Source: an uncultured Haliea sp. (lineage in GTDB: Bacteria > Pseudomonadota > Gammaproteobacteria > Pseudomonadales > Halieaceae). Taken from it: 58,016 nt of DNA. The stretch covers positions 1 to 58,016 of the forward strand of contig CAJXUQ010000024.1 in assembly GCA_913061145.1 (NCBI GenBank). Reading direction: 5' to 3'. A program made the position numbers and the translations under genes. The notes beneath the pieces are model-generated. The model did not search any database and was not told the DNA's origin. It was given only the letters and a program-made list of their open reading frames with translations. This document shows, one piece after another, positions 5,520-30,165 of this stretch (position 1 is the first letter of the stretch; each line of letters opens with the position of its first letter).

Positions 5520-5969
5520 ATGAATGAGAAACCCCAGGCACCGGCCATTGAAGGCTGGTTCACGATGGACGACAAGCCCCGGCTGATCGGCACCCAGTGC
5601 TGTGCCTGTGGCACGTATTTCTTTCCCAAACAGCAGCGCTACTGCAAAAACCCGGACTGCGACAGCACAGACTTCCGCGAGGTACAGCTGAGCCGGACCG
5701 GTCGGGTGTGGAGCTACACCAACGCCTGCTACAAGCCGCCAGCGCCTTTTGTGGCCGCTGAGCCCTTCGAGCCCTATACCATCGCCGCCGTGACGCTGGA
5801 GGAAGAGCAGATGACGGTGCTGGGGCAGGTTGTCACCGGCGTCAATGTCAGCGACCTCAAGGTAGGCATGGCAATGGAACTGGTGCTGGAGCCGCTGCAT
5901 GAAACCGATGACGACATCAAGATGACCTGGAAATGGCGGCCACTGGCAGAACAGGGGGAGCAGCACTGA
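5520..5969 (+). CDS. DUF35 zinc-ribbon/OB-fold protein, partner of thiolase-like enzyme
   Basis: A 149-residue acyl-CoA-associated OB-fold protein. The N-terminal zinc ribbon uses Cys27, Cys30, Cys42 and Cys47 (C-x-x-C ... C-x4-C). The OB domain follows from about residue 58 (G-R-V-W-S-Y-T-N, then V-L-G-Q-V-V-T-G-V, L-K-V-G-M-A-M-E-L-V). GGAGA lies 7 bases before the ATG. Its stop overlaps the thiolase ATG by one base (TGATG), so the two are made together. DUF35 proteins form stable complexes with thiolase-fold enzymes, including steroid side-chain aldolases (Ltp2-ChsH2), archaeal HMG-CoA synthase and acetone carboxylating systems. Confidence 0.9.
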   Translation: MNEKPQAPAIEGWFTMDDKPRLIGTQCCACGTYFFPKQQRYCKNPDCDSTDFREVQLSRTGRVWSYTNACYKPPAPFVAAEPFEPYTIAAVTLEEEQMTVLGQVVTGVNVSDLKVGMAMELVLEPLHETDDDIKMTWKWRPLAEQGEQH

Positions 5970-7156
5970 TGAGCAACGATATCGCCATAATTGGTGCGGG
6001 CATGCACCCCTGGGGCAAGTGGGGACACAATTTCGTTGAATACGGCGTCGCCGCAGCGCGCGAGGCGTTGGCGGATGCCGGCATCCCCTGGCGGGATGTC
6101 GGGTTCGTGTCCGGCGGCGCCACGGTGCGCTGCGGTTACCCGGGCTATGTCGCAGGTGCCACCTTTGCCCAGGCATTGGGCTGGCAGGGCTGTGAGGTGA
6201 ATACTTCCTATGCCGCCTGTGCCTCCGGCTCGCAGGCGCTGGCCGCTGCGCGCAACAAGATTCTCGCGGGAGCCTGTGATGTCGCTCTCGTCATCGGTGC
6301 CGACACCACCCCCAAGGGCTTCCTTGCCCCCGCGGGTGGCTATCGACCGGAAGACCCGGACTGGGTACGCTTTTACCTGGGCATTACCAACCCGACCTAT
6401 TTCGCCCTGTACGCGCGGCGCCGCATGGACCTCTACGGCGACACGCTGGAGGATTTCGCCGCCGTGAAGGTGAAGAACTCCCTGATCGGCAGCAAGAACC
6501 CGCGGGCGCGCTACCGCAAATGCTTCACCGCGGAAGACGTGGCGGCCTCCGCCATGGTCGCGGACCCGCTGCGGTTGATGGACATCTGCGCCACCAGCGA
6601 TGGCGGCGCTGCCCTGATCATTTGCAGCGCTGACTATGCGCGCCGCATTGGCAAGGCCGATGCGCCACGCATTGCGGCCATTTCCACCGTCACGCCGAGC
6701 TTTGCCAGCGCGGTGGTAGAGATGCCGGATATCGCGACCGACTCCGCAGCAGCCGCAGGCATTGAGGCGCACAGCTTCCGTGCGGCGCTGCCGGTCAAGG
6801 CCTACGAAGAGGCCGGTATCGGCCCCGAGGACGTCGATGTAGCAGAAGTCTACGACCTGTCGACCGCGCTGGAACTCGACTGGATTGAAGACCTGCAATT
6901 GGCGCCACGCGGTGAAGCCGCACAGCTGCTGCGTCGTGGCGACACCGCGGTGGGTGGCAGGATACCGGTGAACCCCTCAGGCGGCCTGGCCTGCTTCGGT
7001 GAAGCCGTGCCGGCACAGGCACTCGCCCAGGTCTGCGAACTCACCTGGCAGCTGCGCGGCGAATGTGGTGACCGGCAGGTGGCCGGTGCCAGGGTGGGCA
7101 TCACCGCCAACCAGGGCCTGTTTGGACACGGTAGCTCGGTCATTATCAAGCGCTGA
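5969..7156 (+). CDS. Thiolase-superfamily lipid-transfer-type protein (possible retro-aldolase)
   Basis: A 395-residue thiolase-fold protein of the SCP-x/lipid-transfer branch. The usual nucleophile region is Y-A-A-C-A-S-G-S-Q-A-L with Cys84. Two other thiolase landmarks are altered. The HxxF-type motif reads E-V-Y-D-L-S with Tyr295 instead of His, and the C-terminal Cys of the C-x-G loop is missing (A-N-Q-G-L-F-G-H-G, His387 kept). A Tyr-Asp motif and loss of the second Cys recall non-thiolytic Ltp2-type aldolases that work with a DUF35 partner, which is encoded directly upstream. It may cleave a beta-hydroxyacyl-CoA rather than a beta-ketoacyl-CoA. It converges on the CitE-like gene 19 bases away. 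Confidence 0.85.
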   Translation: MSNDIAIIGAGMHPWGKWGHNFVEYGVAAAREALADAGIPWRDVGFVSGGATVRCGYPGYVAGATFAQALGWQGCEVNTSYAACASGSQALAAARNKILAGACDVALVIGADTTPKGFLAPAGGYRPEDPDWVRFYLGITNPTYFALYARRRMDLYGDTLEDFAAVKVKNSLIGSKNPRARYRKCFTAEDVAASAMVADPLRLMDICATSDGGAALIICSADYARRIGKADAPRIAAISTVTPSFASAVVEMPDIATDSAAAAGIEAHSFRAALPVKAYEEAGIGPEDVDVAEVYDLSTALELDWIEDLQLAPRGEAAQLLRRGDTAVGGRIPVNPSGGLACFGEAVPAQALAQVCELTWQLRGECGDRQVAGARVGITANQGLFGHGSSVIIKR

Positions 7157-7175
7157 ACGGCCAGCGCCGCTGCGG

Positions 7176-8033
7176 TTACAGCCGAGCAATATGCTCGGCA
7201 GTTGCCAGTACGCGGCGCGCTTCATCCACGTGCATCGATTCAATCAGCTTGCCGTCGAGCACCGCGACGGCAGCGCCCGCGTCCGTGGTTTCCTGCCACA
7301 GTGCGAGCAGCTGACGGGCATGTTCCACCGCCGCCGCAGAGGGCCCGAACACGGCGTTGGCGATCACGATCTGCCCTGGATGTATCAGCGTCTTGCCGTC
7401 GAAGCCCAGCGCCCGCCCCTGCTCGCACACGGCCTGCAACCCGGCGCTGTTGCCGATATCGAGATAGACGCCGTCCAGCACCATGATGCCGGCCAGCCGT
7501 GCCGCCAGTACGCAGCGCTGCAGGGCATAGGACAGGCCCCGGCGCTGCTCGTCCGGTGGCAGGCGCAGCTCTGCACAGAGGTCCGTGGTGCCCATGAGCA
7601 GCGCATCCACGCGCTCGCAGTCCGCAATCTGCTCGACGCGCGCCACACCCGCTGGCGTTTCGATCATCGCCCAGATGACCATGTCGCTGCGGCCACAGGC
7701 ATCGAGCTCGCGGGTAACGGCGCGCACCTGCTGCACAGACTCCACCTTGGGCAGGCACACCGTCGCCAAACCCGGCGCCGCCGCAACTGCCTGCAGATCG
7801 TCCAGGCCCCAGGGCGTGGACAAGGCATTGCAGCGCACCACGAGCTGTCGCGCACCGTAGCCGCCAGCAGCGATCTGCGCAACGACCTGTGCGCGCGCCT
7901 GTGCCTTGGCCTCCGGCGCTACCGCGTCCTCCAGGTCGAAAACAATGGCGTCGGCGGGCAGGCCCCGCGCCTTCTCCATCGCCCGCTGGTTGGAGCCGGG
8001 CATATACAGCGCGGTACGCGGCGTCATCTTCAT
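7176..8033 (-). CDS. HpcH/HpaI aldolase / CitE-like lyase
   Basis: A 285-residue TIM-barrel protein of the citrate lyase beta-subunit family. It begins R-T-A-L-Y-M-P-G-S-N and has the metal/acid site F-D-L-E-D-A-V-A-P at 32-40, I-E-T-P-A-G-V in the middle, G-T-T-D-L-C-A-E, and the C-terminal G-x-D-G-K-T-L-I-H-P-G-Q-I. Single-gene CitE-like enzymes cleave or hydrolyse malyl-CoA, citramalyl-CoA and related 3-hydroxyacyl-CoA esters. No citrate lyase alpha or gamma gene is nearby, so a CoA-ester role fits best. It is last in the minus-strand operon and overlaps the cytochrome c stop by four bases. Confidence 0.88.
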   Translation of the reverse strand: MKMTPRTALYMPGSNQRAMEKARGLPADAIVFDLEDAVAPEAKAQARAQVVAQIAAGGYGARQLVVRCNALSTPWGLDDLQAVAAAPGLATVCLPKVESVQQVRAVTRELDACGRSDMVIWAMIETPAGVARVEQIADCERVDALLMGTTDLCAELRLPPDEQRRGLSYALQRCVLAARLAGIMVLDGVYLDIGNSAGLQAVCEQGRALGFDGKTLIHPGQIVIANAVFGPSAAAVEHARQLLALWQETTDAGAAVAVLDGKLIESMHVDEARRVLATAEHIARL

Positions 8034-8449
8034 TCCTGCAGTTGCTCTTCAATCGGTGGGCGCACGGAGGCGCGTTTCAGGTAGGCGACAAGATCCGCCC
8101 GCTGCTGCGGATCGGGAATCCCGCGCGCCATCATCGTGGTGCCCGGGAACATGGCCAGCGGGTCTGCCAGCCAGAGGTAGAGCAGCTGCGGCGTCCACAC
8201 GAACTGCGCATTGCGGAACGTCTCCGAGTAGTACGCAAAGCCCGGTTGCTTGCCCGCCACCTGACCGAAGATGCGGTACAGGCTGGGCCCGTTATTGTGG
8301 CCGACCTCGGGCTCCGGATAATGGCAGGTGCGGCACTGGCCAAACACCAGCCGGCCACGCTCGGGATCTCCTTCGGGCATCGTCGTGGTATCGGTCTGTG
8401 CGCCCGCGGGCGCCACGGCAAGCAACAACAGGAGCAGTAGTGGCTTCAT
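8030..8449 (-). CDS. Periplasmic c-type cytochrome
   Basis: A 139-residue protein with a signal peptide (residues 1-17, poly-Leu core, cut near A-G-A-Q) and one haem attachment motif, Cys39-R-T-C42-H43. The rest follows mitochondrial-like cytochrome c: G-P-S-L-Y-R-I-F-G, then a Trp-rich stretch and F-P-G-T-T-M-M, which supplies a probable axial Met, and D-L-V-A-Y-L-K near the end. It overlaps both the Tat flavoprotein (start at 8449 versus stop at 8446) and the CitE gene by four bases. The likely role is electron acceptor for the flavoprotein in the periplasm. Confidence 0.92.
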   Translation of the reverse strand: MKPLLLLLLLAVAPAGAQTDTTTMPEGDPERGRLVFGQCRTCHYPEPEVGHNNGPSLYRIFGQVAGKQPGFAYYSETFRNAQFVWTPQLLYLWLADPLAMFPGTTMMARGIPDPQQRADLVAYLKRASVRPPIEEQLQE

Positions 8450-9972
8450 GCGGAGACCTCATGGTTTGCCGCCGCCACACCGGCGCGGCGCCCAAAGAAC
8501 GTGCAGTCACCCACAGACAGGCCACTGGCGATATACGGTGCAACCGGCAGGCCCGCCGTGGTGCGGCCCGCCGCATAGAGGCCGGGAACAGGCTCGCCAA
8601 AACCGCTGATCACACGGCCGTCGATATCCGTGTGCAGGCCGCCGAAGGTGTGGGCGGTGAAGAAGGCGCGCTTCACCGAGAGGTCCCAGGCTTTGAACGG
8701 GGGCTTGTCGAGTGGGCGCAGGTACTGCGCCTGCTTGTGGAACAGGGGGTCGCGCCCCAGGTCCGCGAAGCGATTGTAATAGGCGACCGTGTGCTGCAGG
8801 GCGCCCTGGGGAAAATCCGTGCGCGCCGCCAGATCGCCGATGGTCGGTGCCTCGGCCACCAGCAGGAAATTGTCCTGCGGAAAATCGAAACTGCTGCTGG
8901 CATCGGTAATCAGCCACGCGCGCCCCTGTTGACGGTAGGCAATGGCATCCCCCAGCACACCGTAGTAGCTGTCCTCGGGCACGAAGCGTTGCGCACTGGC
9001 GTTCACCACGATACCTGCCAGGGTCGACTCCGGCGGGTAGATAGGGGTGATAGCAAAGCCCTCATGCATGTGCAGGGTCTCTCCGCCCACGCCGGCTCCC
9101 ATGAGGATGCCCTGCCCCAGATCGCCCGCGTTGCCCCAGGGCGCGGAGCAGTCGAACAGGGCCGGCGCATGGCGCTGCACCATCTCGCGATTGTGGATGA
9201 AGCCGCCACAGGCCAGCACGACCCCGCGCTGCGCGCGAATATTGCGTGTCTCACCGTCCGCCAGCACCTGCATGCCAGCCACGCGACCGTCCGACTCCAC
9301 GATCAGGCGCTGACCGGCAACACCCGCACGCATCGTGACACCCGCCGCGGCGGTCTGCGCCAGCAGCGCCTCCATCAGGGTGCGGCCGCCGGTCATGCCG
9401 GGCAGGCCCGGCACGTGACCGCGCGGCACCGGGCGCGCAATCTCCCGCGCCGGCCAGGCGAGTTCGTTGCCCGAGTAATACAACGACTCATCGCCCAGCG
9501 TCAGCTCCTTCACCGGCGTAAAACGATCGTTATAAGGCACACCCATGGCCACCAGCCAGTCGAAATGGGCGACACTTTCCTCGCAGTAGAGCTGGATCTT
9601 GGCCAACTGGGGATGGCCGCCGCTGTTACCGGCGATAAAGCGGTACATCTCCTCCACGCTGTCTTCAAAGCCCGCCGCCTTCTGCAGGGCGGTGCCACCG
9701 CCGGCATACACCACGCCGCCCGACATGGCCGACGAGCCGCCGAACTGCGGCAGAGCTTCGATGAGCAATACGCGGGCACCTGCGCGCTGCGCCTCGATCG
9801 CTGCACTGCAGGCCGCCGAACCGGAGCCTGCGACCAGTACATCCGTCGTCTCGTCCCAGCGACTCACCTCCCGACGGCTCAGTGCGGCAGCGGGCCCGGC
9901 GAGCCCGACACCTGCAGCCCCCGCACCGAGGCCGGCAAGCAGTTGTCGACGGCGCCAGCGTGTTGTGCTCAT
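8446..9972 (-). CDS. Tat-exported FAD-dependent dehydrogenase (fumarate reductase/ketosteroid dehydrogenase type)
   Basis: A 508-residue flavoprotein of the FAD-binding-2 family. An N-terminal twin-arginine signal (R7-R8-R9-Q-L-L then a Gly/Ala-rich core and A-A-A-L near residue 31) sends it folded to the periplasm. The FAD motif A-G-S-G-S-A-A is at 48-54, with E-A-L-P-Q-F-G-G-S-S-A-M-S-G-G downstream, as in 3-ketosteroid delta1-dehydrogenases and fumarate reductases. The C-terminus has the G-L-Y-A-A-G-R-T-T-A-G flavin motif. Co-translation with a periplasmic cytochrome c suggests it oxidises a substrate and passes electrons to that haem. The substrate is unknown; a steroid or enoate is plausible from the neighbourhood. 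Confidence 0.9.
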   Translation of the reverse strand: MSTTRWRRRQLLAGLGAGAAGVGLAGPAAALSRREVSRWDETTDVLVAGSGSAACSAAIEAQRAGARVLLIEALPQFGGSSAMSGGVVYAGGGTALQKAAGFEDSVEEMYRFIAGNSGGHPQLAKIQLYCEESVAHFDWLVAMGVPYNDRFTPVKELTLGDESLYYSGNELAWPAREIARPVPRGHVPGLPGMTGGRTLMEALLAQTAAAGVTMRAGVAGQRLIVESDGRVAGMQVLADGETRNIRAQRGVVLACGGFIHNREMVQRHAPALFDCSAPWGNAGDLGQGILMGAGVGGETLHMHEGFAITPIYPPESTLAGIVVNASAQRFVPEDSYYGVLGDAIAYRQQGRAWLITDASSSFDFPQDNFLLVAEAPTIGDLAARTDFPQGALQHTVAYYNRFADLGRDPLFHKQAQYLRPLDKPPFKAWDLSVKRAFFTAHTFGGLHTDIDGRVISGFGEPVPGLYAAGRTTAGLPVAPYIASGLSVGDCTFFGRRAGVAAANHEVSA

Positions 9973-20436: not shown

Positions 20437-20484
20437 GTAGCGGCAGGCGTGGGCCGGCGCAGAACGCGCCGACCCTGCCGCCAC
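20437..20484. terminator. Long GC-rich hairpin between convergent tlpA-like and sat genes
   Basis: GCGGCAGG at 20440-20447 pairs with CCTGCCGC at 20474-20481, and an inner stem CGGCGC (20455-20460) pairs with GCGCCG (20466-20471) around a 5-base loop. The symmetry would serve transcripts from both sides. There is no T-run, so it is at best a pause or RNA-end-protecting structure rather than a classical intrinsic terminator. Confidence 0.45.
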
Positions 20485-21665
20485 TACAGGCTCTGGTAGT
20501 AATCCATGAGTATCCTGGCCACTTCCGGCCGGGAGAACTCAGGCGGCGGGGCGATGCCGTTGCCCAGCATTTCGCGCACCCGCGTACCCGAAAGCAGCAC
20601 GAAGTCCTCCGGGCTGTGATCCGGCGCGTCGCGCATCATGACCACGCGGTCCAGCTTCTTGCTGTACGCCGTGTGGTCGGCGCGGTAGATTTCCAGCTCC
20701 AGGGCACCTGCCGGTACTTCCTCGTCAAAGATGGTCTGCGCGTCAAAGCCGCCATAGTAGTCGCCTACGCCGGCGTGGTCGCGCCCCACTATCAGGTGCG
20801 TGCAGCCGCAGTTCTGACGGAAAACTGCGTGCAGTACCGCCTCGCGCGGGCCGGCATACAGCATGTCGAAGCCGTAACCCGTGACCATCACGGTGTTCGG
20901 CGGGAAGTAGACATCCACCATTTTCCGGATCGCCGCATCGCGCACGTCTGCGGGAATATCACCCGGCTTGAGCTTGCCCAGCAGCATGTGGATGAGAATG
21001 CCATCCGCATGCAGGTCTTCCATCGCCATACGGCACAGTTCCTCATGCGCGCGGTGCATGGGGTTGCGGGTCTGGAAAGCGACGACCTTGTTCCAGCCGC
21101 GGGAGGCGATTTCGGCGCGAATCTCCACGGCGGTGCGGAAGGTGTCGGGGAACTCGCCGGGGAAGTAGGAGAAATTCAGCACCTCAATCGGGCCGGACAA
21201 CAAGGTGCGGCCCAGCGACTTGAAGGTCGCAACGCCGGGATGCGCAGGGTCCAGTGTGCGGAACACTTTCTCCGCGATAAAGTCGATCTGCGCGTCGGAC
21301 ACCGACTCCACCGCGTCCACCTCCATCACGGCAAGCACCGGGTTGCCCTCGGTATTCGGGTCGCGCAGCGCGATACGTGTGCCGGGCTGGATGTCCGTTG
21401 CCTCGGTCAGGTTGACAATGGGCACGGGCCAGAACAGGCCGTCGACGGTCTGCAGCTTCTCCGCCACGCTGAGGCTGTCAGCCAGGTTCATGTAGCCGTT
21501 CAGGGGGTTGAAGTAACCAGCGCCCAGCATGACCGCATTGGCTGCGGCCGCTGAGTTGAGCAGCAGTGAGGGCAACTGCTCCGCCTCCTTCAACAGCGCC
21601 TCGCGACGGGCATCGTCAGCGATGTAGAGAGGTTGCAGCTCGTCTGAGCCGTGTGGCTTGATCAT
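20484..21665 (-). CDS. sat: ATP sulfurylase, homo-oligomeric Sat type
   Basis: A 393-residue sulfate adenylyltransferase making adenosine 5'-phosphosulfate (APS) from ATP and sulfate. The PUA-like N-domain is about 1-165. The catalytic domain contains the nucleotide motif Q-T-R-N-P-M-H-R-A-H-E and G-R-D-H-A-G-V-G-D-Y-Y-G. This is the single-chain type, not the CysD/CysN heterodimer many gammaproteobacteria use for sulfate assimilation. It lies 26 bases downstream of cysC and in the same operon as a sulfotransferase, so it probably supplies PAPS for sulfonation rather than, or besides, cysteine synthesis. Confidence 0.96.
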   Translation of the reverse strand: MIKPHGSDELQPLYIADDARREALLKEAEQLPSLLLNSAAAANAVMLGAGYFNPLNGYMNLADSLSVAEKLQTVDGLFWPVPIVNLTEATDIQPGTRIALRDPNTEGNPVLAVMEVDAVESVSDAQIDFIAEKVFRTLDPAHPGVATFKSLGRTLLSGPIEVLNFSYFPGEFPDTFRTAVEIRAEIASRGWNKVVAFQTRNPMHRAHEELCRMAMEDLHADGILIHMLLGKLKPGDIPADVRDAAIRKMVDVYFPPNTVMVTGYGFDMLYAGPREAVLHAVFRQNCGCTHLIVGRDHAGVGDYYGGFDAQTIFDEEVPAGALELEIYRADHTAYSKKLDRVVMMRDAPDHSPEDFVLLSGTRVREMLGNGIAPPPEFSRPEVARILMDYYQSL

Positions 21666-21691
21666 GTTCGTCTCCGTTCGGGGTAAGGTAA

Positions 21692-22309
21692 TCAGGACGT
21701 GATGATGCCGCGCTCGCGCAGCAGGGCAATGATGGTATCCACCTCTTCGGCCAGCGTTTGCTGATCCGAGTGCAAATGCACCTCGGGCTTGAACGGCGCC
21801 TCGTAAGGGTCATCGATTCCCGTAAAGTTCTTGATTTCTCCCGCCCGCGCTTTCTTGTACAGGCCCTTGGGATCACGCGCTTCCGCGGCCTCCAGGGAAC
21901 AATCCACAAAGATCTCGATAAAGTCCATGCCCGCTGCTTCGTGCAACTCTCGCACCTGGTTCCGATCGCTGGCATAGGGGCTGATAAAGCTGCTCAGTGT
22001 AACGATGCCGCAGTCCACAAACAGCTTGGAGATTTCCCCGATGCGACGGATATTTTCGGTGCGGTCGTCCGCACTGAAACCCAGGTTGCGGTTAATGCCC
22101 AGGCGCACGTTGTCACCATCCAGCCGATAGGCAAGCACGCCCATTTCATTCAGACGCCCCTCCAGTTCTACCGCCACGGTGCTCTTGCCGCTGCCGGACA
22201 GGCCGGTGAACCACAGGGTGGCCCCTTTATGACCCAACAACTTCTCGCGGTGTTCGCGGGTGATGTCACCCTCGTGCCAATGGACATTCGTCGCTTTTTG
22301 CTCTGCCAT
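21692..22309 (-). CDS. cysC: Adenylylsulfate (APS) kinase
   Basis: A 205-residue kinase phosphorylating APS to PAPS. The P-loop G-L-S-G-S-G-K-S is at 36-43. It also has D-G-D-N-V-R, L-G-F-S-A-D-D-R-T-E-N-I-R-R, F-I-S-P-Y and the lid region K-G-L-Y-K-K-A-R-A-G-E-I-K-N-F-T-G-I-D-x-P-Y-E. It is full length with all expected motifs. It is 56 bases downstream of the sulfotransferase gene and 26 bases upstream of sat, so the operon encodes both steps from sulfate to PAPS. Confidence 0.97.
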   Translation of the reverse strand: MAEQKATNVHWHEGDITREHREKLLGHKGATLWFTGLSGSGKSTVAVELEGRLNEMGVLAYRLDGDNVRLGINRNLGFSADDRTENIRRIGEISKLFVDCGIVTLSSFISPYASDRNQVRELHEAAGMDFIEIFVDCSLEAAEARDPKGLYKKARAGEIKNFTGIDDPYEAPFKPEVHLHSDQQTLAEEVDTIIALLRERGIITS

Positions 22310-22365
22310 GTGTGCTCTCTCGTGCAGTGGTTCAGGTTAGCCGCCGGGCGCCCCGGCGACGATGT

Positions 22366-23544
22366 TCACTTATCCAGGATAAAGGCTTCCCGGTAGCCCT
22401 TGAATTGCGCCTTCAGGCCCTCTTCGGTCAGGCCGAACTGGTCCAATGTGTAGGCATGTGCAGGGCGCAGTTCACGCCGGTTGGAGTCTTGCCAGCGCGC
22501 CATTTCCACACTGGCTTCGGGGGTAAGGTCCATACCGAGGAAGTCGTAGACGCGGCCGATCTCCACCATTGGCTGGCTGACCGTATCCTTGAACCAGAGG
22601 TCCAGGAACCGCTCGGGGCCCATCTCGCGGCGCACATCTATGGTGTGCTGCATGCCCTTGGCGAACTTGCGGGCCCACTGTCGCCCTACTGCCACCGGGT
22701 CGGCGGAGTCGGAATACACCTGCCACACATTGGCGATCATGCTGGCCAGCGACGGAATGGTCTCAACCGGGTCACGGTGGGATTGTACCACGCGGGCATC
22801 CGGGAAGATGCGAAACACCAGGTCCATGTAGTGCAGGTGGTGCGGCGCCTTCAGTGCCCAGCGCTCACCGCGCTGCCCGCTACGTTTCTTTTGCCACTGC
22901 AGGAACTGCAGTAGCAGCTTCAGGTACTCATAGCCAATGGTGTGGTCCTGCGCCTCGATCCAGGCATCGAAACTGGGGACATTCGCCAGCGCCTGGATAT
23001 TGAAGCTGTAGAAGGACTGCTCCAACAGCATGATGTCCTCGTCCGGCTCCATGGCATCCAACGGGTGCACGGACAGCAGGTCGGGGTTGCTGTCGACCAT
23101 CATTTTCACTTCCGCCTTGGCGTCGCGAATACGACGGTCACCTGCCGCGGTGAAGTCCCAATCGAGATCCGGGCAGGGAAAACGTGTTTCATACCACAAC
23201 GGGGCATACATGCGATTGTCAGCGGCGATGGTCCGGTGCAACATCGTGGTCCCGGTGCGGGGCAGGCCGACAATCACCAGCGGCTCCACGATCTGCTCAT
23301 CCAGGATTTCCGGGTGGCGACGCAGCCACTCCTGCACGCGCAGCCTGGTCGACAGGATATCCAGCATGCGCTGGGCCATTGCCGGGCGGCCGATCGCGTT
23401 CAGGTCCGCCTCATGCACCAGCGACCACAGGAGCCTTTCCAATGGCTCGCGATAGCTGTCGTCACCAAAGTCTTCAAGCCCGTCTACAGCCCTGGCCGCA
23501 GCGACCAGTGCATCTGCATCCAGTGCCAGTTCCGTCATGCTCAT
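22366..23544 (-). CDS. PAPS-dependent sulfotransferase family protein
   Basis: A 392-residue sulfotransferase of the Sulfotransfer_3 type. The 5'-phosphosulfate-binding loop is G-L-P-R-T-G-T-T-M-L-H at 93-103 and the 3'-phosphate-binding strand is V-V-Q-S-H-R-D-P. A predicted helical N-terminal 90 residues precede them. The family moves sulfonate from PAPS to hydroxyls of lipids, steroids or sugars, or to amines; the acceptor is unknown. The ATG at 23544 has AGGAGAGG just upstream and overlaps the DUF1214 stop by four bases. It is followed by cysC and sat, which make the donor. Confidence 0.9.
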   Translation of the reverse strand: MSMTELALDADALVAAARAVDGLEDFGDDSYREPLERLLWSLVHEADLNAIGRPAMAQRMLDILSTRLRVQEWLRRHPEILDEQIVEPLVIVGLPRTGTTMLHRTIAADNRMYAPLWYETRFPCPDLDWDFTAAGDRRIRDAKAEVKMMVDSNPDLLSVHPLDAMEPDEDIMLLEQSFYSFNIQALANVPSFDAWIEAQDHTIGYEYLKLLLQFLQWQKKRSGQRGERWALKAPHHLHYMDLVFRIFPDARVVQSHRDPVETIPSLASMIANVWQVYSDSADPVAVGRQWARKFAKGMQHTIDVRREMGPERFLDLWFKDTVSQPMVEIGRVYDFLGMDLTPEASVEMARWQDSNRRELRPAHAYTLDQFGLTEEGLKAQFKGYREAFILDK

Positions 23545-24656
23545 TCCACCTCTCCTGCGATTAATGTCTCCAGCGCGACAACACGCGTGCGCACCGGAGG
23601 ATGATCCGATGCCTCGACATAGCGCAACAACATGGCGCCACACTCATGACCCGCGGTCGTCAGCCAGTTGGGGTATGCGCTACCCGGATTCCTGCCCGCC
23701 ACCACAATGCGCACACTGCCGTCCGCTTCATAGCGGGCACTGCTGCGATTGATATGGATACGATGGAAGCGGTAGTCCAGCGACTCCATCCAGAAATTTG
23801 AGAGCTGGAAGTTCCAGGTCCGACAGTCCCGGGGCGGCATAAATTCAATCAGCAGCGCCTCTTCCGGGGCCAACTGCCAGTAGCTGTTGTGGTAGTAGAT
23901 TGCAGGGTCGCCGCCCGCCCGCAGGCACATCTGCTGGTCATTGGGGGGCAGTGCGTTGATATGGCCGGCAAAGCCCAGCATCCAGTTGCGGAACAGGCCG
24001 GCGGTGCCGTTCACGAAAGGCACCACGCGCTGTAACTGGCTGGCAAACGCCGCAGGATCCAGCACGGGGGCTGCCTGCTGGTCCAGGCACTCGATGCGCA
24101 GTTCAAGCTTGGGCTCACGCGCGCGGTCCCGAAAGGTCTGGCGCACCAGAATATTGTCCGAGGCTTCGGTCATGGACAACCAGTTACCGGGCTGCGGGGT
24201 CGCGCTGACCAGCAGCTCAAATTCCCCATTGGGGCCCAGTTCCAGATCCTCCAGGGTGATGTGGCCGGTGGGGGCCATATCGCCCTGGCCGGCGAAGGAG
24301 CCCGCCTTGGTTTCAATGCTCAGGTATTCCACCTGTCCTGCATTACCGGTAATGCGGTAGCTGTGACGTCCGTCTACCGCACAGTTCTGGTAGAAATTGT
24401 CCGGGTTGTCATTGCCGATTTTGGCGGTTTCATGCGACAGGGAGTAGAACTGCGGACAGGCGGGGTCGCTGAACTCGAGGTGTTTTTCCAGGCTCAACCG
24501 CAACAGACGTGTGAGGTACCGATACCCTTCCGCGATGCTGAGATCGTCAGCAGGCACACCCTCTGCCAGGATCTCTGCACCGGCGCTTTTCAGGCTCTCA
24601 CAAAAATCTTCCCAAAGCTGGCCATTGCGTAACGCATCAAGCTCGGTCATCGACAT
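23541..24656 (-). CDS. DUF1214-domain protein co-translated with sulfotransferase
   Basis: A 371-residue protein without signal peptide or membrane helices. Its C-terminal third has the DUF1214 pattern (Y-W-Q-L-A-P-E-E-A-L-L-I-E-F, W-N-F-Q-L-S-N-F-W, and N-P-G-S-A-Y-P-N-W-L-T-T-A-G-H-x-x-G-x-M-L-L-R). DUF1214 proteins have no settled enzymatic role. Its first residues (M-S-M-T-E-L) coincide with those of the sulfotransferase that follows. The ATGA overlap between them implies a fixed ratio and perhaps a complex. The ATG at 24656 has only a weak purine-rich leader; 24650 is an alternative. Confidence 0.82.
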   Translation of the reverse strand: MSMTELDALRNGQLWEDFCESLKSAGAEILAEGVPADDLSIAEGYRYLTRLLRLSLEKHLEFSDPACPQFYSLSHETAKIGNDNPDNFYQNCAVDGRHSYRITGNAGQVEYLSIETKAGSFAGQGDMAPTGHITLEDLELGPNGEFELLVSATPQPGNWLSMTEASDNILVRQTFRDRAREPKLELRIECLDQQAAPVLDPAAFASQLQRVVPFVNGTAGLFRNWMLGFAGHINALPPNDQQMCLRAGGDPAIYYHNSYWQLAPEEALLIEFMPPRDCRTWNFQLSNFWMESLDYRFHRIHINRSSARYEADGSVRIVVAGRNPGSAYPNWLTTAGHECGAMLLRYVEASDHPPVRTRVVALETLIAGEVE

Positions 24657-24730
24657 GATCAGGGTCCCCGCGGTGAAGATATCAGTGTAATCAGCGACGC
24701 GCAGTGTGCAGTGTTTTCGATCCGCGCACA

Positions 24731-24746
24731 TCACCCTTAAGGGTGA
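24731..24746. promoter_or_regulatory. Perfect 16-bp palindrome, candidate operator
   Basis: TCACCCTTAAGGGTGA reads the same on both strands. It lies in the 95-base gap between the small membrane-protein gene and the DUF1214 gene, 75 bases upstream of the latter's ATG. Size and symmetry fit a dimeric repressor or activator site controlling the DUF1214-sulfotransferase-cysC-sat genes. The cognate regulator is not evident in the window. Confidence 0.45.
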
Positions 24747-24751
24747 CCTGC

Positions 24752-24928
24752 CTACCAATACTGGCTGGCCAGAGACAGCAGCAGCATCAAGCCGACCAGA
24801 GGCAACAGCCAGCGTTGCAGCTGACGCACCCGCTCCTGCGGCAGGGGGCGGGCAAAGCGCTCACCCAGCACCACCATCAGCGCCACGGCGCTGAACACCA
24901 ACACCAGCAGTAGCAGCAATTGCGTCAC
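24752..24928 (-). CDS. 58-residue two-helix membrane protein
   Basis: A short gene with GTG start at 24928, preceded by AGGGGAG about 8 bases upstream, and TAG stop at 24752. The product has a Leu/Val-rich helix at residues 3-21, a charged turn (G-E-R-F-A-R-P-L-P-Q-E-R-V-R-Q-L-Q-R), and a second helix at 40-54, ending A-S-Q-Y-W. This is a membrane hairpin with a basic cytoplasmic loop. It sits 28 bases after the epimerase and upstream of DUF1214, on the same strand, so it is probably part of the sulfonation operon. No known family is recognised. Confidence 0.65.
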   Translation of the reverse strand: MTQLLLLLVLVFSAVALMVVLGERFARPLPQERVRQLQRWLLPLVGLMLLLSLASQYW

Positions 24929-24956
24929 CTGCCAACTCCCCTTTCGTCCGCAACCC

Positions 24957-25889
24957 TCAGGCGCCGGGCTTCAGCAGCTGGGGTGACAGGGTGGCGACCA
25001 TGTTGCGCACCCCCTCGCGCCAGTCCACCCGGGTGGGGCCAATCAGTTCATGCATGCGCGTGGTGTCAATCGCCAGGCTGCCGAAGGCGGCGGGGTTGTC
25101 GCGAAACTCCGGCTGCAGGCCGGTAAGCTCCGCAAGCCAAGCGCACCAGTCCTCGATACTGACCGCCTGCGATCCGCCAAAGTTAACCGTGGTCACGTCG
25201 GTGCTCGCGGCGCCCAGCAGCAGGGGCAGTTTCTCGATGTAGTCGTCGGTGTGCAGCAGGTTGTAGAGATTCGGTCGTTCCGGGTGCACATCGATGGGCA
25301 TCCGCTGCTCCATCATCAACAGGTGATACCAGGGCCAGCCGCCGTTGTTGCCATAGGGCACGCTGAGACGCGCAATGGTGGCGGGAATGCCGAACTGGTG
25401 CGCAACAAAGCGACAGACGGTTTCTGCGGCAATCTTGCTGATGCTATAAGTGGGAAACATGGCGCGGTGGTTGTCGCCCAACGGCGCATCCTCGGCCCGC
25501 GGGGCGTGGCCGGCGTACTCGTAGACGGCCGTCGAGGACAGGTGCAGGAAAGCCCTGGCGGCACGGCAATGCAGCATGAGCCGCCCCAGCCCCTCCGCAT
25601 TCGCCGCGAGGTCGTAATCGAAACTGTCTGTTTTCACCACGGCAAAATTCAGCACGTAGTCGAAGTCATCCGGCAGGTCACGCAAACCGTTGCGGTCGGC
25701 AAGATCCGCCGCCACGCAGCGTACCCCTTTGTCCTCGAGCGCTGCGCGCTGCGCCGGATCGCTGAAACGTGCCAGGGCGGTCAACTCCGCCTGGCCGGCC
25801 CAGGCGTCGATCACCGGCGCCGCCACCTGCCCGGTCGGGCCTGTGATAAGGATTTTACTGCCTGCGATCTTTGCTGCCTCGACGGTCAT
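24957..25889 (-). CDS. NAD-dependent epimerase/dehydratase (extended SDR)
   Basis: A 310-residue extended short-chain dehydrogenase. The Rossmann motif is I-T-G-P-T-G-Q-V-A at about 15-23, Ser-Ser-Thr is in L-S-S-T-A-V-Y-E-Y, and the catalytic pair is Y-S-I-S-K. The P-T-x-x-x-x-x-A-E-T pattern follows, with R-L-S-V-P-Y-G-N-N-G-G as a substrate loop. Members modify nucleotide sugars or other polyols and ketones. AAGGAG precedes the ATG at 25889. It heads the minus-strand run leading to the DUF1214, sulfotransferase, CysC and Sat genes and may prepare the sulfotransferase acceptor; this is inference. Confidence 0.87.
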   Translation of the reverse strand: MTVEAAKIAGSKILITGPTGQVAAPVIDAWAGQAELTALARFSDPAQRAALEDKGVRCVAADLADRNGLRDLPDDFDYVLNFAVVKTDSFDYDLAANAEGLGRLMLHCRAARAFLHLSSTAVYEYAGHAPRAEDAPLGDNHRAMFPTYSISKIAAETVCRFVAHQFGIPATIARLSVPYGNNGGWPWYHLLMMEQRMPIDVHPERPNLYNLLHTDDYIEKLPLLLGAASTDVTTVNFGGSQAVSIEDWCAWLAELTGLQPEFRDNPAAFGSLAIDTTRMHELIGPTRVDWREGVRNMVATLSPQLLKPGA

Positions 25890-25964: not shown

Positions 25965-26618
25965 TCAGAGCTCATCGCGATCGGGCAGTACGCGGTACAC
26001 TTCGGAGATCTGCTCCGGACCACTGACCGTGCACTGCAGATCCTGGATAAGGCCGTCCTTCAGGCTGTAAACCCAGCCGTGCACTGACAGCCCCTGACCG
26101 CGCGCCCAGGCGTTCTGCACGATGGTGGTGTGACACACGTTTGACACCTGGCTGACCACATTGAGTTCGCAGAGCAGATTGACCCGCTCCTCGTCGCTTT
26201 CCAGCGCCGCGATACGCCGGCGATGGCGCTGCTGGACATCCTTGATGTTGCGCAGCCAGTTGTCGATCAGGCCGTTGTCACGGTTTTCGTAGGCGGCGCG
26301 CACACCGCCGCAGTTGTAATGCCCGACCACCAGCACATGTTTGACCCGCAGCACATCCACCGCGTACTGCAGCACGGTCAGGCAGTTGAAATCCGTGTGT
26401 ACCACCATGTTGGCAACGTTACGGTGCACAAACACCTCGCCGGGCAGCAGGCCGACGATCTGATTGGCGGGGACGCGGCTGTCGGAACAGCCAATCCAGA
26501 GGTACTCCGGACTCTGCTGATTGGCCAGCTTCTCGAAAAAATCTGGATCAGTGGTTTTTACGGAGTGCGCCCAAGCACGGTTGTTTTCGAAAAGGTCGTC
26601 GATACTCCTCAAGGGCAC
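25965..26618 (-). CDS. can: Beta-class carbonic anhydrase
   Basis: A 217-residue zinc enzyme interconverting CO2 and bicarbonate. The zinc ligands are Cys44, Asp46 (C-S-D-S-R, with Arg48), His100 and Cys103 (H-Y-N-C-G-G). It tracks E. coli Can closely: G-E-V-F-V-H-R-N-V-A-N, the H-T-D-F-N-C-L strand, L-I-D-N-W-L, and H-G-W-V-Y in the C-terminal part. The start is GTG at 26618 with GGAG 6 bases before it. It begins 13 bases after the stop of the GGDEF-like gene, suggesting co-transcription. Confidence 0.96.
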   Translation of the reverse strand: MPLRSIDDLFENNRAWAHSVKTTDPDFFEKLANQQSPEYLWIGCSDSRVPANQIVGLLPGEVFVHRNVANMVVHTDFNCLTVLQYAVDVLRVKHVLVVGHYNCGGVRAAYENRDNGLIDNWLRNIKDVQQRHRRRIAALESDEERVNLLCELNVVSQVSNVCHTTIVQNAWARGQGLSVHGWVYSLKDGLIQDLQCTVSGPEQISEVYRVLPDRDEL

Positions 26619-26631
26619 ACTGTCTCCGGAA

Positions 26632-27774
26632 TCAGATCATCAGGGTAGAGAGGCGGCCGACCTTGAGTTGATTACCATTTCCCGCAACCGCGCTCTGCAC
26701 TGCTTTCGAACCGGCGCTCTGCATTTGCCGGGCCAGCTGCGCCATGTCAACGGCAGGGTATTGTTCAGGTTCCCAGGTGACAAGGCCGAGGCTAAGCGTA
26801 ACCTGAAGCACCGCACCACGGCCATCATCTATGAGGAAATTTTCTATGTCCCGGCGTATCCTTTCCGCCACATCAATGGCGGGAGACTCGCTGGTGCCGG
26901 AAAGCAGCACCGCCAGTCGAGAATCTGACAGGCGCGCGAGATAGTCGGTGGCGCGCAGCCCGGAGGAGACGCGCTCTGTCACCTTTTTCAGCACAAACCG
27001 GCCCGTGATCTCCCCGTAGTGACGATACAGCTCTTCAAACTCGTCCACCTCCAGCATCAGGACCGATAGCGCCTCATTGGCGCGCCGTGCCCGAGCGATT
27101 TCACGGGCGATATCCTTCTCGAAGCCGCGCAGGTTGCTGATCTGGGTCAGCGGGTCCAGCATGGTCAGGCGGGAAATCTGCTGTCGGCTGACCGCGTTCT
27201 TGAAGCTCTGGGATACCACCGATGCCAGGTGTGTGACGACCGCACCATCATCGGCTGTGGTCTTCATGGGCCGGTCGACAAACCCGCAGTGATAACTGCC
27301 CAATAGCCTGCCGGAGTCCAGCAGGGGAACCAGCAGGGCATGCTGTATTCCCTGGTCCGTTTTCAAGACCTCGAACATGCGCGAGTCGGTCGCATCCAGG
27401 AGGATGACGTCCGGCTCCATGTCGTAGAGCTCCTGCATTTCAAACACATCGTGATGCAGTTGCAGATACTGGCCGTAGCGGTGACCCGAGGTCATCAGGC
27501 TCGCCAGGACGTTTTCCGGGTCATAGAGCCAGAGCTCGGCGACCCGGAATCCGAAGTGCCGCGGCATGCTCACCAGCAAGACCTCAAGCAGCGCCTCAAG
27601 GTCGGGGGCATCAAGCATCATCCGCTGCATCTGCCGCGCCTGCTCAACAAGCCAGCGATTCAACTGGATGGTTTCGCTCAGGCGCTGCTCCTGCACCTCG
27701 GCGGGGCTGGCTGGTGCGGGCGCCGCTTCGATCTCTTCACCCGGGATCACATCGTACACAGACTCATCCGACAT
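26632..27774 (-). CDS. GAF/DUF484-like sensor with degenerate GGDEF domain
   Basis: A 380-residue cytoplasmic protein. A GAF-like (DUF484-like) domain spans about 40-195 (R-H-F-G-F-R-V-A-E-L-W-L-Y, then H-A-L-L-V-P-L-L-D-S-G-R-L-L-G-S-Y-H-C-G). A GGDEF-family domain spans 205-370, starting D-P-L-T-Q-I-S-N-L-R-G-F. At the active-site hairpin GGDEF is replaced by S-D-S-R-L (283-287, in A-R-L-S-D-S-R-L-A-V-L-L). Diguanylate cyclase activity is therefore not expected; it may bind nucleotide or another GGDEF protein. It precedes can by 13 bases. Confidence 0.85.
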   Translation of the reverse strand: MSDESVYDVIPGEEIEAAPAPASPAEVQEQRLSETIQLNRWLVEQARQMQRMMLDAPDLEALLEVLLVSMPRHFGFRVAELWLYDPENVLASLMTSGHRYGQYLQLHHDVFEMQELYDMEPDVILLDATDSRMFEVLKTDQGIQHALLVPLLDSGRLLGSYHCGFVDRPMKTTADDGAVVTHLASVVSQSFKNAVSRQQISRLTMLDPLTQISNLRGFEKDIAREIARARRANEALSVLMLEVDEFEELYRHYGEITGRFVLKKVTERVSSGLRATDYLARLSDSRLAVLLSGTSESPAIDVAERIRRDIENFLIDDGRGAVLQVTLSLGLVTWEPEQYPAVDMAQLARQMQSAGSKAVQSAVAGNGNQLKVGRLSTLMI

Positions 27775-27825
27775 TCAGTATCTCGCCGCTAGCAGGACGC
27801 AGGGCCCCGGTTATGGACAGAATTA

Positions 27826-27854
27826 TTGGCAACTCAGTTTAAGCGGCCTATACT
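27826..27854 (+). promoter_or_regulatory. Sigma-70 promoter of the thiamine salvage operon
   Basis: TTGGCA (27826-27831), 17 bases, then TATACT (27849-27854): a near-consensus housekeeping promoter. Transcription would begin near 27861, about 55 bases before the TPP aptamer and 205 before the TonB receptor ATG. Confidence 0.8.
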
Positions 27855-27883
27855 CGCGTTGCAAACACGCGCTGACTTGCTAT

Positions 27884-27898
27884 GTAACAAAGTGTTAC
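27884..27898 (+). promoter_or_regulatory. Inverted repeat in the riboswitch leader
   Basis: GTAACA-AAG-TGTTAC is a perfect 6-bp inverted repeat with a 3-base loop, about 25 bases after the inferred transcription start and upstream of the TPP aptamer. It could be an RNA hairpin protecting the 5' end or a DNA operator. Nothing in the sequence decides between these. Confidence 0.4.
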
Positions 27899-27914
27899 GT
27901 CCAGATTGGCGCTT

Positions 27915-28004
27915 GCAAACCTGGGGGTGGCTACGGCCTGAGATACCGTTCTGCGGTAAACCCTTCGAACCTGACCCGGTTAGGACCGGCGTAGGGATAG
28001 GTGC
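27915..28004 (+). promoter_or_regulatory. TPP (thiamine pyrophosphate) riboswitch aptamer
   Basis: The leader has the conserved THI-element blocks in order: GGGGGTGG, then GGCCTGAGATACC (pyrimidine-sensor core CTGAGA), ACCCTTCGAACCTGA, CCGGTTAGGACCGG (P4/P5) and CGTAGGGATAGG. ACCT near 27919-27922 and AGGT at 27999-28002 can close the P1 stem. TPP binding normally represses. It lies between the promoter and the TonB receptor, so it marks the four downstream genes as thiamine-related. Confidence 0.96.
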
Positions 28005-28034
28005 ACGTCTCCTGTTCATTCCGCATATCCAACC

Positions 28035-28063
28035 GGTTCTCTTGCAGTTATTCAAGGAGAACC
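28035..28063 (+). promoter_or_regulatory. RBS-sequestering hairpin, likely riboswitch expression platform
   Basis: GGTTCTC (28035-28041) pairs with GAGAACC (28057-28063), extended by TTG/CAA with one bulge. The second strand includes the AAGGAG ribosome-binding site of the receptor gene. The 5' part AACCGG (28031-28036) can instead pair with CCGGTT (27976-27981) in the aptamer. This suggests a switch: with TPP the aptamer keeps CCGGTT busy and the RBS is masked; without TPP the RBS is freed. The switch model is inferred from complementarity. Confidence 0.7.
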
Positions 28064-28065
28064 CG

Positions 28066-30165
28066 ATGAAAAGATCCTGTTATCTGTTGACCGCAAGCCT
28101 GCTTGCCGTGGCCCCGGCGTTGTCGCGTGAGCTGACGGAGGTGGTAGTCACTGCCGAGTGGCGCGATACACCGCTGCTGAACCAGTCGGCATCAACAACG
28201 GTACTCACCAGCGCAGCGCTGAGGGAACGCTCTGCGCAGCACCTTGAAGAGGTGCTGAACGTGATCCCGAACCTCAACTACGCCAGCGGTGCCTCCCGCG
28301 CGCGGTTCTTCCAGATCCGCGGCATCGGTGAACGCAGCCAGTTCCAGGAGCCGCTCAACGCGTCAGTGGGGCTGATGGTCGACGGCATCGATTTCAGCGG
28401 CCTGGGTGCCATTGGCACCCTGTTCGACGTAGCCCAGGTTGAGGTGCTGCGCGGCCCCCAGGGTACGCTGCACGGCGCCAACGCCCTCGCCGGGCTGGTG
28501 AACATCCGCAGCGCCGCTCCAGAGAGCAGCCCGGGACTGCGGCTGGAAGCCACCGTGGCGGACTACAACACCCAGGCACTGGGGGTTGTGGGCACCGGCC
28601 CGCTGGCCGGCGATGAGCTGTTGTACCGCGTGGCAGTACAGCAGTACCGCAGTGACGGTTACTACGACAACGACTTTCTGCGCCGGGACGACACCAATGA
28701 ACGCGATGAAACCACTGTACGCGCCCGCCTGCGCTGGCTTGCCTCGGCCACCGATACCGTCGACCTGAGCGTGACGCTGGCCGACATCGACAACGGCTAC
28801 GATGCCTTCTCGCTGGACAACACGCGCCGCACACTGTCCGACCAGCCGGGCCGTGATCGCCAGGAGACCAGCGCCGCCAGCCTCACCTGGGCCGCCTCAC
28901 GCGCGGCACTGGACATCGAGACCGTGATCACACTCGCAACCAGCGACACGGAGTACAGTTTCGACGAAGACTGGAGTTTTGTCGGCATCGCTCCGGAACT
29001 GGAATACAGTTCCTTCGACCGCTATCTGCGCGACCGCGACAGTTTCAGCGGCGAGCTGCGATTGCTCTCCAACGAACAGTCGCGACTGTTCGAGGGGCGC
29101 AGTGACTGGACGGCGGGCTTTTACTACCTGGGTGACCGCGAGGATCTGGACCGCGAATACACCTACCTCGACGGGCCCTTCAACAGCCGCTACGACACGG
29201 ACACAAGCGCCGTGTTCGGGCAGCTGGATACGCGGCTCACCGACCACCTGACGCTGTCCAGCGGCCTGCGCCTGGAGCGACGGCGCACCGACTATGCCGA
29301 CAATTACGGCGTGGCCGAGCGGGTTGCCAAAAACCTTTGGGGCGCGCGGCTGGTGCTCGAGTACCAGCCTGCGGACGGCGCGCTGTGGTACGGTGGCATT
29401 TCCCGCGGCTACCGCGGCAATGGCGTGAACGCAGGCATTCTGGCCAGCGCGGGCGCCACCGACGACCCCGGCCAGCAGACGCTGCTCGCGAGCCTGGGCC
29501 GCTTTGATGAGGAAACACTGCTCAACTATGAAGTCGGTTACAAGGCCGAAGCACTGCAGGGACGGCTGCAGGGACGCCTCGCCCTGTTCTATATGGACCG
29601 GGATGACCAGCAGGTAAAAGGCTCCCTGGTGCTGCCGCGTGATGACGGCAGCACCGCATTCCTCGACTACACCAACAACGCCGCCCGAGGGCACAATTAC
29701 GGGCTGGAGCTCGAAATCGACTGGCTGGCACACGAGGCACTGGAGCTGTACGTCAACCTGGGCCTGCTGGAAGCCAGTTTCGACCGCTATATCAATGCAG
29801 ATGGCAGCGACCTCGCCGGGCGTGACCAGGCTCACGCGCCGGGCTATCAGGCTGCGCTGGGCGGCCGCCTCGCGATCACCCGGCAGCTCTATGCGCGTGT
29901 GGATATCGAGGCCCGCGACAGCTTTTACTTTTCCGACCGCCACGATTTACGCTCGGAGGCCTATGAACTGGTACACCTGCGCCTTGGCTGGGCGGAAGCG
30001 GATTGGGACATCGCGCTCTGGGCACGGAACCTCGCTGACAGGGACTACGCGACGCGCGGCTTCGGCAGCTTCGGCAACGACCCACGCAAGGGCTATGCTC
30101 TTGAGCCCTATTACCAGTTCGGCGAACCACGCAGCGTGGGCCTGACGGCCAGCTATCAATTCTAG
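28066..30165 (+). CDS. TonB-dependent outer-membrane receptor, thiamine uptake
   Basis: A 699-residue receptor. A signal peptide (about 1-20), a TonB box (L-T-E-V-V-V-T-A), a plug domain (E-V-L-N-V-I-P-N-L-N-Y-A-S-G, R-I-R-G-I-G-E type motif, V-E-V-L-R-G-P-Q-G-T-L-H-G) and a beta-barrel ending in aromatic Phe (T-A-S-Y-Q-F) are all present. I start it at the ATG at 28066, where AAGGAG sits 8 bases upstream; the longer open frame runs back through the riboswitch and is not coding. Control by TPP and the downstream genes identify the cargo as thiamine or a precursor such as HMP. Confidence 0.93.
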   Translation: MKRSCYLLTASLLAVAPALSRELTEVVVTAEWRDTPLLNQSASTTVLTSAALRERSAQHLEEVLNVIPNLNYASGASRARFFQIRGIGERSQFQEPLNASVGLMVDGIDFSGLGAIGTLFDVAQVEVLRGPQGTLHGANALAGLVNIRSAAPESSPGLRLEATVADYNTQALGVVGTGPLAGDELLYRVAVQQYRSDGYYDNDFLRRDDTNERDETTVRARLRWLASATDTVDLSVTLADIDNGYDAFSLDNTRRTLSDQPGRDRQETSAASLTWAASRAALDIETVITLATSDTEYSFDEDWSFVGIAPELEYSSFDRYLRDRDSFSGELRLLSNEQSRLFEGRSDWTAGFYYLGDREDLDREYTYLDGPFNSRYDTDTSAVFGQLDTRLTDHLTLSSGLRLERRRTDYADNYGVAERVAKNLWGARLVLEYQPADGALWYGGISRGYRGNGVNAGILASAGATDDPGQQTLLASLGRFDEETLLNYEVGYKAEALQGRLQGRLALFYMDRDDQQVKGSLVLPRDDGSTAFLDYTNNAARGHNYGLELEIDWLAHEALELYVNLGLLEASFDRYINADGSDLAGRDQAHAPGYQAALGGRLAITRQLYARVDIEARDSFYFSDRHDLRSEAYELVHLRLGWAEADWDIALWARNLADRDYATRGFGSFGNDPRKGYALEPYYQFGEPRSVGLTASYQF

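Follow-up and report, generated by a model that had tools for sequence, protein, structure and literature searches.

A DUF1214-sulfotransferase gene pair beside the probably shared sulfate-activation genes of a Haliea genome, with a steroid-like acceptor favoured

In rhizobia, the sulfotransferase NodH is encoded together with sulfate-activation genes (NodPQ), which duplicate the housekeeping set. In Mycobacterium tuberculosis, a DUF1214-like protein, a short-chain dehydrogenase/reductase (SDR) and a Sulfotransfer_3 protein (Stf1) are encoded in one operon of the KstR regulon, Rv3531c-Rv3530c-Rv3529c; we take Rv3531c to be the DUF1214-like member, judging from gene order and size in relatives. 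Herein, we describe a locus of an uncultured Haliea sp. (Halieaceae; a 3.52 Mb genome of 53 contigs with a stated completeness of 97.8%) in which a DUF1214 gene and a sulfotransferase gene precede cysC and sat, the genes for making 3'-phosphoadenosine-5'-phosphosulfate (PAPS). It lies on contig C24 (CAJXUQ010000024.1), whose 58,016 bases, the whole stretch analysed, are called the window. As with NodH and NodPQ, a sulfotransferase is encoded here with sulfate-activation genes, whereas the sat-cysC of the window is the only activation set found and NodH systems are not known to have a DUF1214 partner. The window pair differs from Rv3531c-Rv3529c in that no SDR gene lies between the two genes, in that it stands beside sat-cysC and not kshA, and in its subfamily; the gene order of another pair of the same genome, on contig C5, is like that of the mycobacterial operon. 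This equivalence of order is drawn from relatives and from a table in PMC6429209. We lean, at slightly better than even confidence, towards the explanation that the PAPS supply is shared by the whole cell and that the DUF1214-sulfotransferase pair taps it to sulfonate steroid-like acceptors, with the DUF1214 protein as partner.

The genes concerned are all on the minus strand and are transcribed in the order beta-carbonic anhydrase, SDR, membrane protein, DUF1214, sulfotransferase, cysC and sat. The DUF1214 gene (23541-24656) matches PF06742 with 30.8 bits (cut-off, 25), a sum of stretches that each stay below passing, and the sulfotransferase gene (22366-23544) matches PF13469 (Sulfotransfer_3) with 137 bits (cut-off, 27); the longest open reading frames (ORFs) of both were used in the Pfam scan. 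Next to them, cysC (21692-22309) encodes the kinase that converts adenosine-5'-phosphosulfate (APS) to PAPS (PF01583, 229 bits; TIGR00455, 261 bits against a cut-off of 139). The last gene, sat (20484-21665), encodes a single-chain ATP sulfurylase producing APS from sulfate (PF01747, 256 bits; PF14306, PUA_2; TIGR00339, 396 bits against a cut-off of 323), which scores just under the cut-off of the subfamily model NF003166 (375 versus 387). Upstream of the pair are an epimerase-type SDR gene (24957-25889; PF01370, 75 bits) and a GTG-started gene (24752-24928) whose translation, a membrane protein of 58 residues, has two hydrophobic stretches. The stop of DUF1214 overlaps the start of the sulfotransferase gene as ATGA. 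Between the operon genes, the minus strand shows no terminator-like site, and a scan of the operon region turned up no sigma-70-like promoter. ORFs and profiles confirm the gene set and its places as a sequence-only reading had first described them.

The pairing recurs within the genome and beyond it. The Haliea genome has eight Sulfotransfer_3 matches, four of them with a DUF1214-like neighbour: the window pair on C24, a pair of overlapping genes on C4, a C5 run of DUF1214, SDR, sulfotransferase and luciferase-like monooxygenase genes, and a C10 run of sulfotransferase, DUF1214-like (23.1 bits; cut-off, 25) and SDR genes. The DUF1214 proteins of these four pairs are 26-47% identical. Profile counts of DUF1214 are underestimates, and the genome-wide family search skipped the window's own gene; protein queries were used instead, and the window DUF1214 protein has relatives in 58 of 97 genomes (its own and those of relatives). 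A sulfotransferase gene lies within 1.5 kb of 53 of the 66 DUF1214 genes in all collected loci, orthologous ones included, and is on the same strand in 51 of the 53. Among 40 stretches taken around matches of at most 50% identity, which were spread through the match list and not drawn at random, a sulfotransferase was found in 32 (30, plus two by six-frame search). The distance matrices of the two proteins correlate with r of 0.84, compared with at most 0.26 in 2000 shuffles; the correlation includes species relatedness, and three of the 56 pairs behind it, from Mycobacterium, Tsukamurella and Paraburkholderia, were added to the set. The DUF1214-sulfotransferase pair is a real, recurrent two-gene system. 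Open-licence literature, in which absence is weak evidence, yielded no paper joining DUF1214 with a sulfotransferase; judged by title, DUF1214 turned up only in a genome-quality context, and nothing on DUF1254 function was found. A possible DUF1214-sulfotransferase fusion at C10 (an ORF of 708 residues) was rejected, its front part being dissimilar to DUF1214 proteins and most likely the product of a too-early start. Two variants were also seen: two tandem DUF1214 genes with one sulfotransferase gene (L091, 2344-6147), and a DUF1214 gene followed directly by a sulfatase gene (PF00884) in place of the sulfotransferase gene (L099, 4491-7277).

The sulfotransferase of the window resembles, in PDB profile searches, 2zq5 (E 3e-107) and 2z6v (E 2e-96), the entries for Stf1 and STF9, and it is hence called Stf1/STF9-like here. 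The PAPS site of such enzymes is marked by a 5' loop of the PRxGT type and a 3' Arg...Ser; residues G93, R96, G98, R257 and S265 are invariant in all 49 aligned sulfotransferase rows, and T99 is kept in 48. Its PAPS loops are intact, which supports the assignment as a PAPS-dependent enzyme that the sequence-only reading had made. Tyrosylprotein sulfotransferases and cytosolic SULTs, alike in the PAPS-binding region, are remote relatives among the weak profile matches, and 2zq5 and 2z6v are far closer. CurM and retinol dehydratase, which use sulfonation to activate a hydroxyl, are also among these weak matches. In a steroid or terpenoid breakdown pathway, sulfonation could likewise turn a hydroxyl into a leaving group that the DUF1214 protein then eliminates, making the pair a dehydratase, an idea with which the catabolic gene contexts are consistent. 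The two precedents are not known to need a DUF1214 partner, and no lyase-like fold was among the listed matches of the DUF1214 structure model, so that we hold a dehydratase to be distinctly unlikely. The model has the family fold, matching 6ans from Burkholderia cenocepacia and VPA0735. The first is an uncharacterised protein; VPA0735 (2p3y, 3vb9) and VPA0106 (3u07) are remote to the window protein (8-12% identity), and the titles of all these entries name neither a function nor a link to a sulfotransferase.

The neighbourhood is conserved as well. The order DUF1214-sulfotransferase-cysC-sat, which the sequence-only reading had proposed searching for, holds in 19 of the 20 orthologous loci, with the sulfotransferase adjoining DUF1214 in all 20 and cysC-sat alongside in 19. 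In the window and 19 of the orthologous loci (L063, in which genes were not called, was left out), the distance from the DUF1214 stop to the nearest possible sulfotransferase start is between -14 and +47 bases in 19 of the 20, and 88 bases in the remaining one. At least 28 of the 97 genomes, counting the Haliea genome and one with a partial DUF1214 match (G035), have a DUF1214 match and Sat on the same contig at a distance of up to about 4 kb; 25 of these belong to its family, and three others contribute one each (G068, G087 and G090). Since the order recurs in orthologous loci and genomes, the arrangement in the window is not due to chance. In two further genomes (G023 and G063), the pair is present and lies away from sat.

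The sequence-only reading went further and took the locus for a self-contained sulfonation operon, with Sat and CysC dedicated to a sulfated metabolite and set apart from assimilation. The PAPS-dependent sulfotransferase, the DUF1214 gene and the adjoining PAPS genes stand; the dedication does not. The Haliea genome holds one Sat, one CysC and one PAPS_reduct-family gene (a CysH), and neither a CysD over the cut-off nor any second activation system was found in its 97.8%, which is the very situation that the earlier reading had named as its refutation. A second housekeeping set elsewhere, as would accompany a NodPQ-NodH type of operon, was not found in this genome. Within the family, 59 of 61 genomes have Sat and none has CysD over the cut-off; across the 97 genomes, Sat occurs in 79, CysD over the cut-off in 13, both in none and neither in five, among them G082, where pieces of CysD lie at the ends of contigs. 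Since only one activation system is found, we take the PAPS supply to be shared between assimilation and sulfonation. The single Sat and CysC, the missing CysD and the family-wide Sat lead us to reject a sat-cysC set dedicated to sulfonation in this genome. The CysH candidate, for which the earlier reading had also called, looks like the PAPS type: it ends in ECGLHTAA and has no CC pair, and it lacks the CC...CxxC iron-sulfur motif. Given these features, assimilation most likely also needs CysC.

Second activation sets do occur in relatives. In G090, sat-cysC occurs twice, and of these sets that of L084 has the pair and that of L223 does not; G067 has cysD-cysN elsewhere (L225) in addition to cysD-cysNC about 6 kb from a DUF1214-sulfotransferase pair (L222). 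The PAPS supply does look dedicated in some relatives, and G090 and G067, with the gene order and the intact domains, are what speaks for a dedicated operon; for the Haliea locus, in whose genome no second set was found, we regard it as highly improbable. PAPS genes next to a sulfotransferase gene need not be dedicated to it, and here a housekeeping set would be shared. In G033, there is an extra, longer Sat ORF of 569 residues (L224).

The opposite extreme is that Sat-CysC is purely assimilatory and that the pair stands beside it through common descent of one insertion, with no coupling to PAPS supply. Sat-CysC is the sole activation route found in the family, and it persists where the pair is missing: among 20 family sat loci without DUF1214 next to sat, cysC is beside sat in 19 (at the remaining one the contig breaks off), and 12 of these loci are from genomes without any listed DUF1214 match. 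G039 plainly has the same locus, with the receptor, GGDEF, carbonic anhydrase, cysC, sat, TlpA, arsC and wrbA genes kept and SDR, DUF1214 and sulfotransferase missing. Because relatives without the pair retain cysC-sat, the activation genes are the constant part of the locus and the DUF1214-sulfotransferase pair the accessory part. That 25 of the at least 28 genomes with the DUF1214-Sat arrangement are of one family also fits descent of one insertion. This explanation is, however, unlikely in our view, as pairs also stand beside other PAPS sets, namely cysQ-cysD-cysN, cysD-cysNC and the duplicated sat-cysC of G090.

These other sets came in part from a plasmid survey, in which eight stretches were examined out of 57 match rows in two overlapping lists. 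Paraburkholderia sprentiae has an alcohol dehydrogenase gene followed by DUF1214, sulfotransferase, VOC, CysQ, cysD and cysN genes. In Tsukamurella tyrosinosolvens, cysD and a gene annotated as cysC, which aligns as cysNC, are divergent from a DUF1214-like gene (22.3 bits, under the Pfam cut-off), an SDR gene and a sulfotransferase gene. CysQ lies 4-7 kb from DUF1214 at two Novosphingobium loci, with no annotated sulfotransferase in the stretch, and at two other sphingomonad loci a sulfotransferase lies about 4-6 kb from DUF1214. No sulfotransferase is annotated in the Sphingobium herbicidovorans DUF1214 stretch, and the Embleya stretch is unannotated. DUF1214-sulfotransferase pairs are repeatedly linked to PAPS supply in several lineages. 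The G067 cluster (L222, 3728-14765) combines cysD-cysNC, DHH phosphoesterase, sulfatase and alkyl sulfatase genes with SRPBCC-type, sulfotransferase and DUF1214 genes on the opposite strand, a content that suggests synthesis and removal of sulfate esters together.

Aerobic steroid breakdown pathways are not known to contain a sulfonation step, and nothing joining sulfotransferase, steroid degradation and PAPS was found in the open-licence literature, a weak absence. The gene contexts of Mycobacteriales point to such a link. We took the best 80 of 510 relatives of C5-type DUF1214 queries headed by the Tsukamurella protein, a choice of queries that explains why all 80 are from Mycobacteriales or actinobacteria. 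The order DUF1214-SDR-sulfotransferase is intact in 78 of these loci and cut by a contig end in the other two. KshA-like genes lie nearby in 67, KstD or KshA genes in 70 and cysD in nine (six from Tsukamurella, three from Mycobacteroides or close kin), and four loci have none of these; in the three Mycobacteroides-type loci, the operon stands between cysD-cysNC and KshA. In the 150 bases upstream of DUF1214, 49 of the 80 loci carry the KstR-type palindrome AGAACNNGTTCT, compared with 29 of 15,375 random windows from the same loci. In Mycobacterium sp. 4858 (L196), the operon is flanked on one side by kstD (NF005882, 970 bits), acetaldehyde dehydrogenase and hydroxyoxovalerate aldolase genes and on the other by KshA (PF19298, 295 bits); its sulfotransferase matches 2zq5 with E 1e-219, and the protein in the DUF1214 position has no Pfam DUF1214 match and resembles 6ans (E 6e-32). 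On contig C18 of the Haliea genome itself (L248, 6615-12081), a single run of genes encodes KstD-like, KshA, alkyl sulfatase, SDR and SnoaL proteins, the KstD-like protein scoring 574 bits, below the cut-off of 788; a second KshA gene lies on C11 beside an acyl-CoA-dehydrogenase-like gene. By these profile matches, a putative sulfate-ester hydrolase is placed within a steroid-type cluster at C18. In the literature, KstR binding is listed for the Rv3531c/Rv3532 region (PMC1995591), Rv3531c alone of the three M. tuberculosis genes is marked required in a cholesterol table (PMC6429209), a Halieaceae isolate from a sponge grew with cholesterol (PMC5790920), and steroid degraders are said to include the OM60 clade (PMC4810484).

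The acceptor might otherwise be a cell-surface glycolipid or polysaccharide, with the upstream SDR and membrane protein making or exporting it. An epimerase-type SDR and a membrane protein do precede the pair, and sulfoglycolipids are known from mycobacteria. However, the SDR is present in 17 of the 20 orthologous loci, including one (L073) in which it is about 5 kb off, and was not found in three (in one of which the contig stops short); with the steroid context in Mycobacteriales, this makes a glycolipid acceptor quite improbable. A steroid-like acceptor is now favoured over it on gene content.

For the preferred explanation, a shared PAPS supply tapped by the pair, we propose the following course from gene content. 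Sat and CysC would make PAPS for the whole cell, from which CysH would assimilate sulfur and the sulfotransferases would sulfonate. The sulfotransferase of the operon would move the sulfonate of PAPS onto a hydroxyl of some small lipophilic compound, for which a steroid or a catabolite derived from one is most likely. The DUF1214 protein, made in step with it, would be its working partner; the pairing is observed, and the partner most likely binds and presents the acceptor or accepts the sulfated product. The pair would be an accessory insertion beside housekeeping cysC-sat. The 3'-phosphoadenosine-5'-phosphate (PAP) left over would probably be cleared by a DHH-type phosphoesterase.

Several observations weigh against this explanation. 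The model fold of the DUF1214 protein gives no function. The window DUF1214 query has eight matches in the Haliea genome, in which four pairs were found; a better-scoring DUF1214 gene on C16 (L023, 6519-7934) has no sulfotransferase gene nearby, and no sulfotransferase was found in eight of the 40 lower-identity stretches (L088, L090, L096, L099 and L109-L112). Conversely, a sulfotransferase 71% identical to that of the window stands beside cysC-sat without DUF1214 in L220 (5021-8108). The DUF1214 and sulfotransferase trees match loosely: of 56 pairs, 28 agree in their nearest neighbours and 44 in the nearest of three own-genome types. The window proteins are only 25% (DUF1214) and 31% (sulfotransferase) identical to those of Tsukamurella, and AGAACNNGTTCT, with at most one mismatch, has no match in the window, looser forms lying outside the scan. 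The best matches of CysH are PAPS reductase models, with scores below the NCBIfam cut-offs. CysQ was rejected as the PAP-removing enzyme of this genome, its best match being a weak one that covers part of the protein at 37% (E 1.4e-5). In the same table of PMC6429209, the entries for Rv3530c, a possible oxidoreductase, and for Rv3529c, a conserved hypothetical, give these genes as involved, not as confirmed or predicted essential; since they are not marked required, this speaks against strict joint action with Rv3531c. Finally, Rv3529c is named sulfotransferase Stf1 in PMC8882603, which cites work reporting that it affects host TLR2 signalling, a role unlike the metabolic one suggested here.

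A DHH-type phosphoesterase gene follows sat or cysNC in L205, L215, L217, L219 and L222, and the Haliea genome has a relative 65% identical (C37:18380-19333). Both DHH phosphoesterases run against Pfam scored just under the cut-off. From its position, the DHH phosphoesterase is a candidate PAP phosphatase, and a better one than CysQ.

A wider extension is tentative, and we consider it possible without expecting it: DUF1214 proteins with Stf1-like sulfotransferases may form a widespread system that adds PAPS-dependent sulfonation to bacterial steroid catabolism, mycobacteria included, with alkyl sulfatases desulfating later. If so, steroid breakdown would gain a new, so far overlooked sulfonation step, and DUF1214, a family with a solved and unexplained structure, would gain a function. 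Stf1-type enzymes would then have a metabolic role in the mycobacterial sterol regulon, and there would be a reason for Rv3531c being listed as required on cholesterol.

Around the operon, the beta-carbonic anhydrase gene (25965-26618, minus strand; PF00484, 187 bits) is a conserved upstream neighbour outside the sulfonation step, present in 17 of the 20 orthologous loci. Next to it are genes for a GGDEF protein and a TonB-receptor-like protein (26632-30165), each also kept in 17 of 20. The DUF1214 gene on C16 is, by eye, near TonB-receptor-like, SDR-like and amidohydrolase-like ORFs. Elsewhere in the window (5933-9972), a thiolase-like protein is encoded with an FAD protein of weak similarity to the KstD profile.

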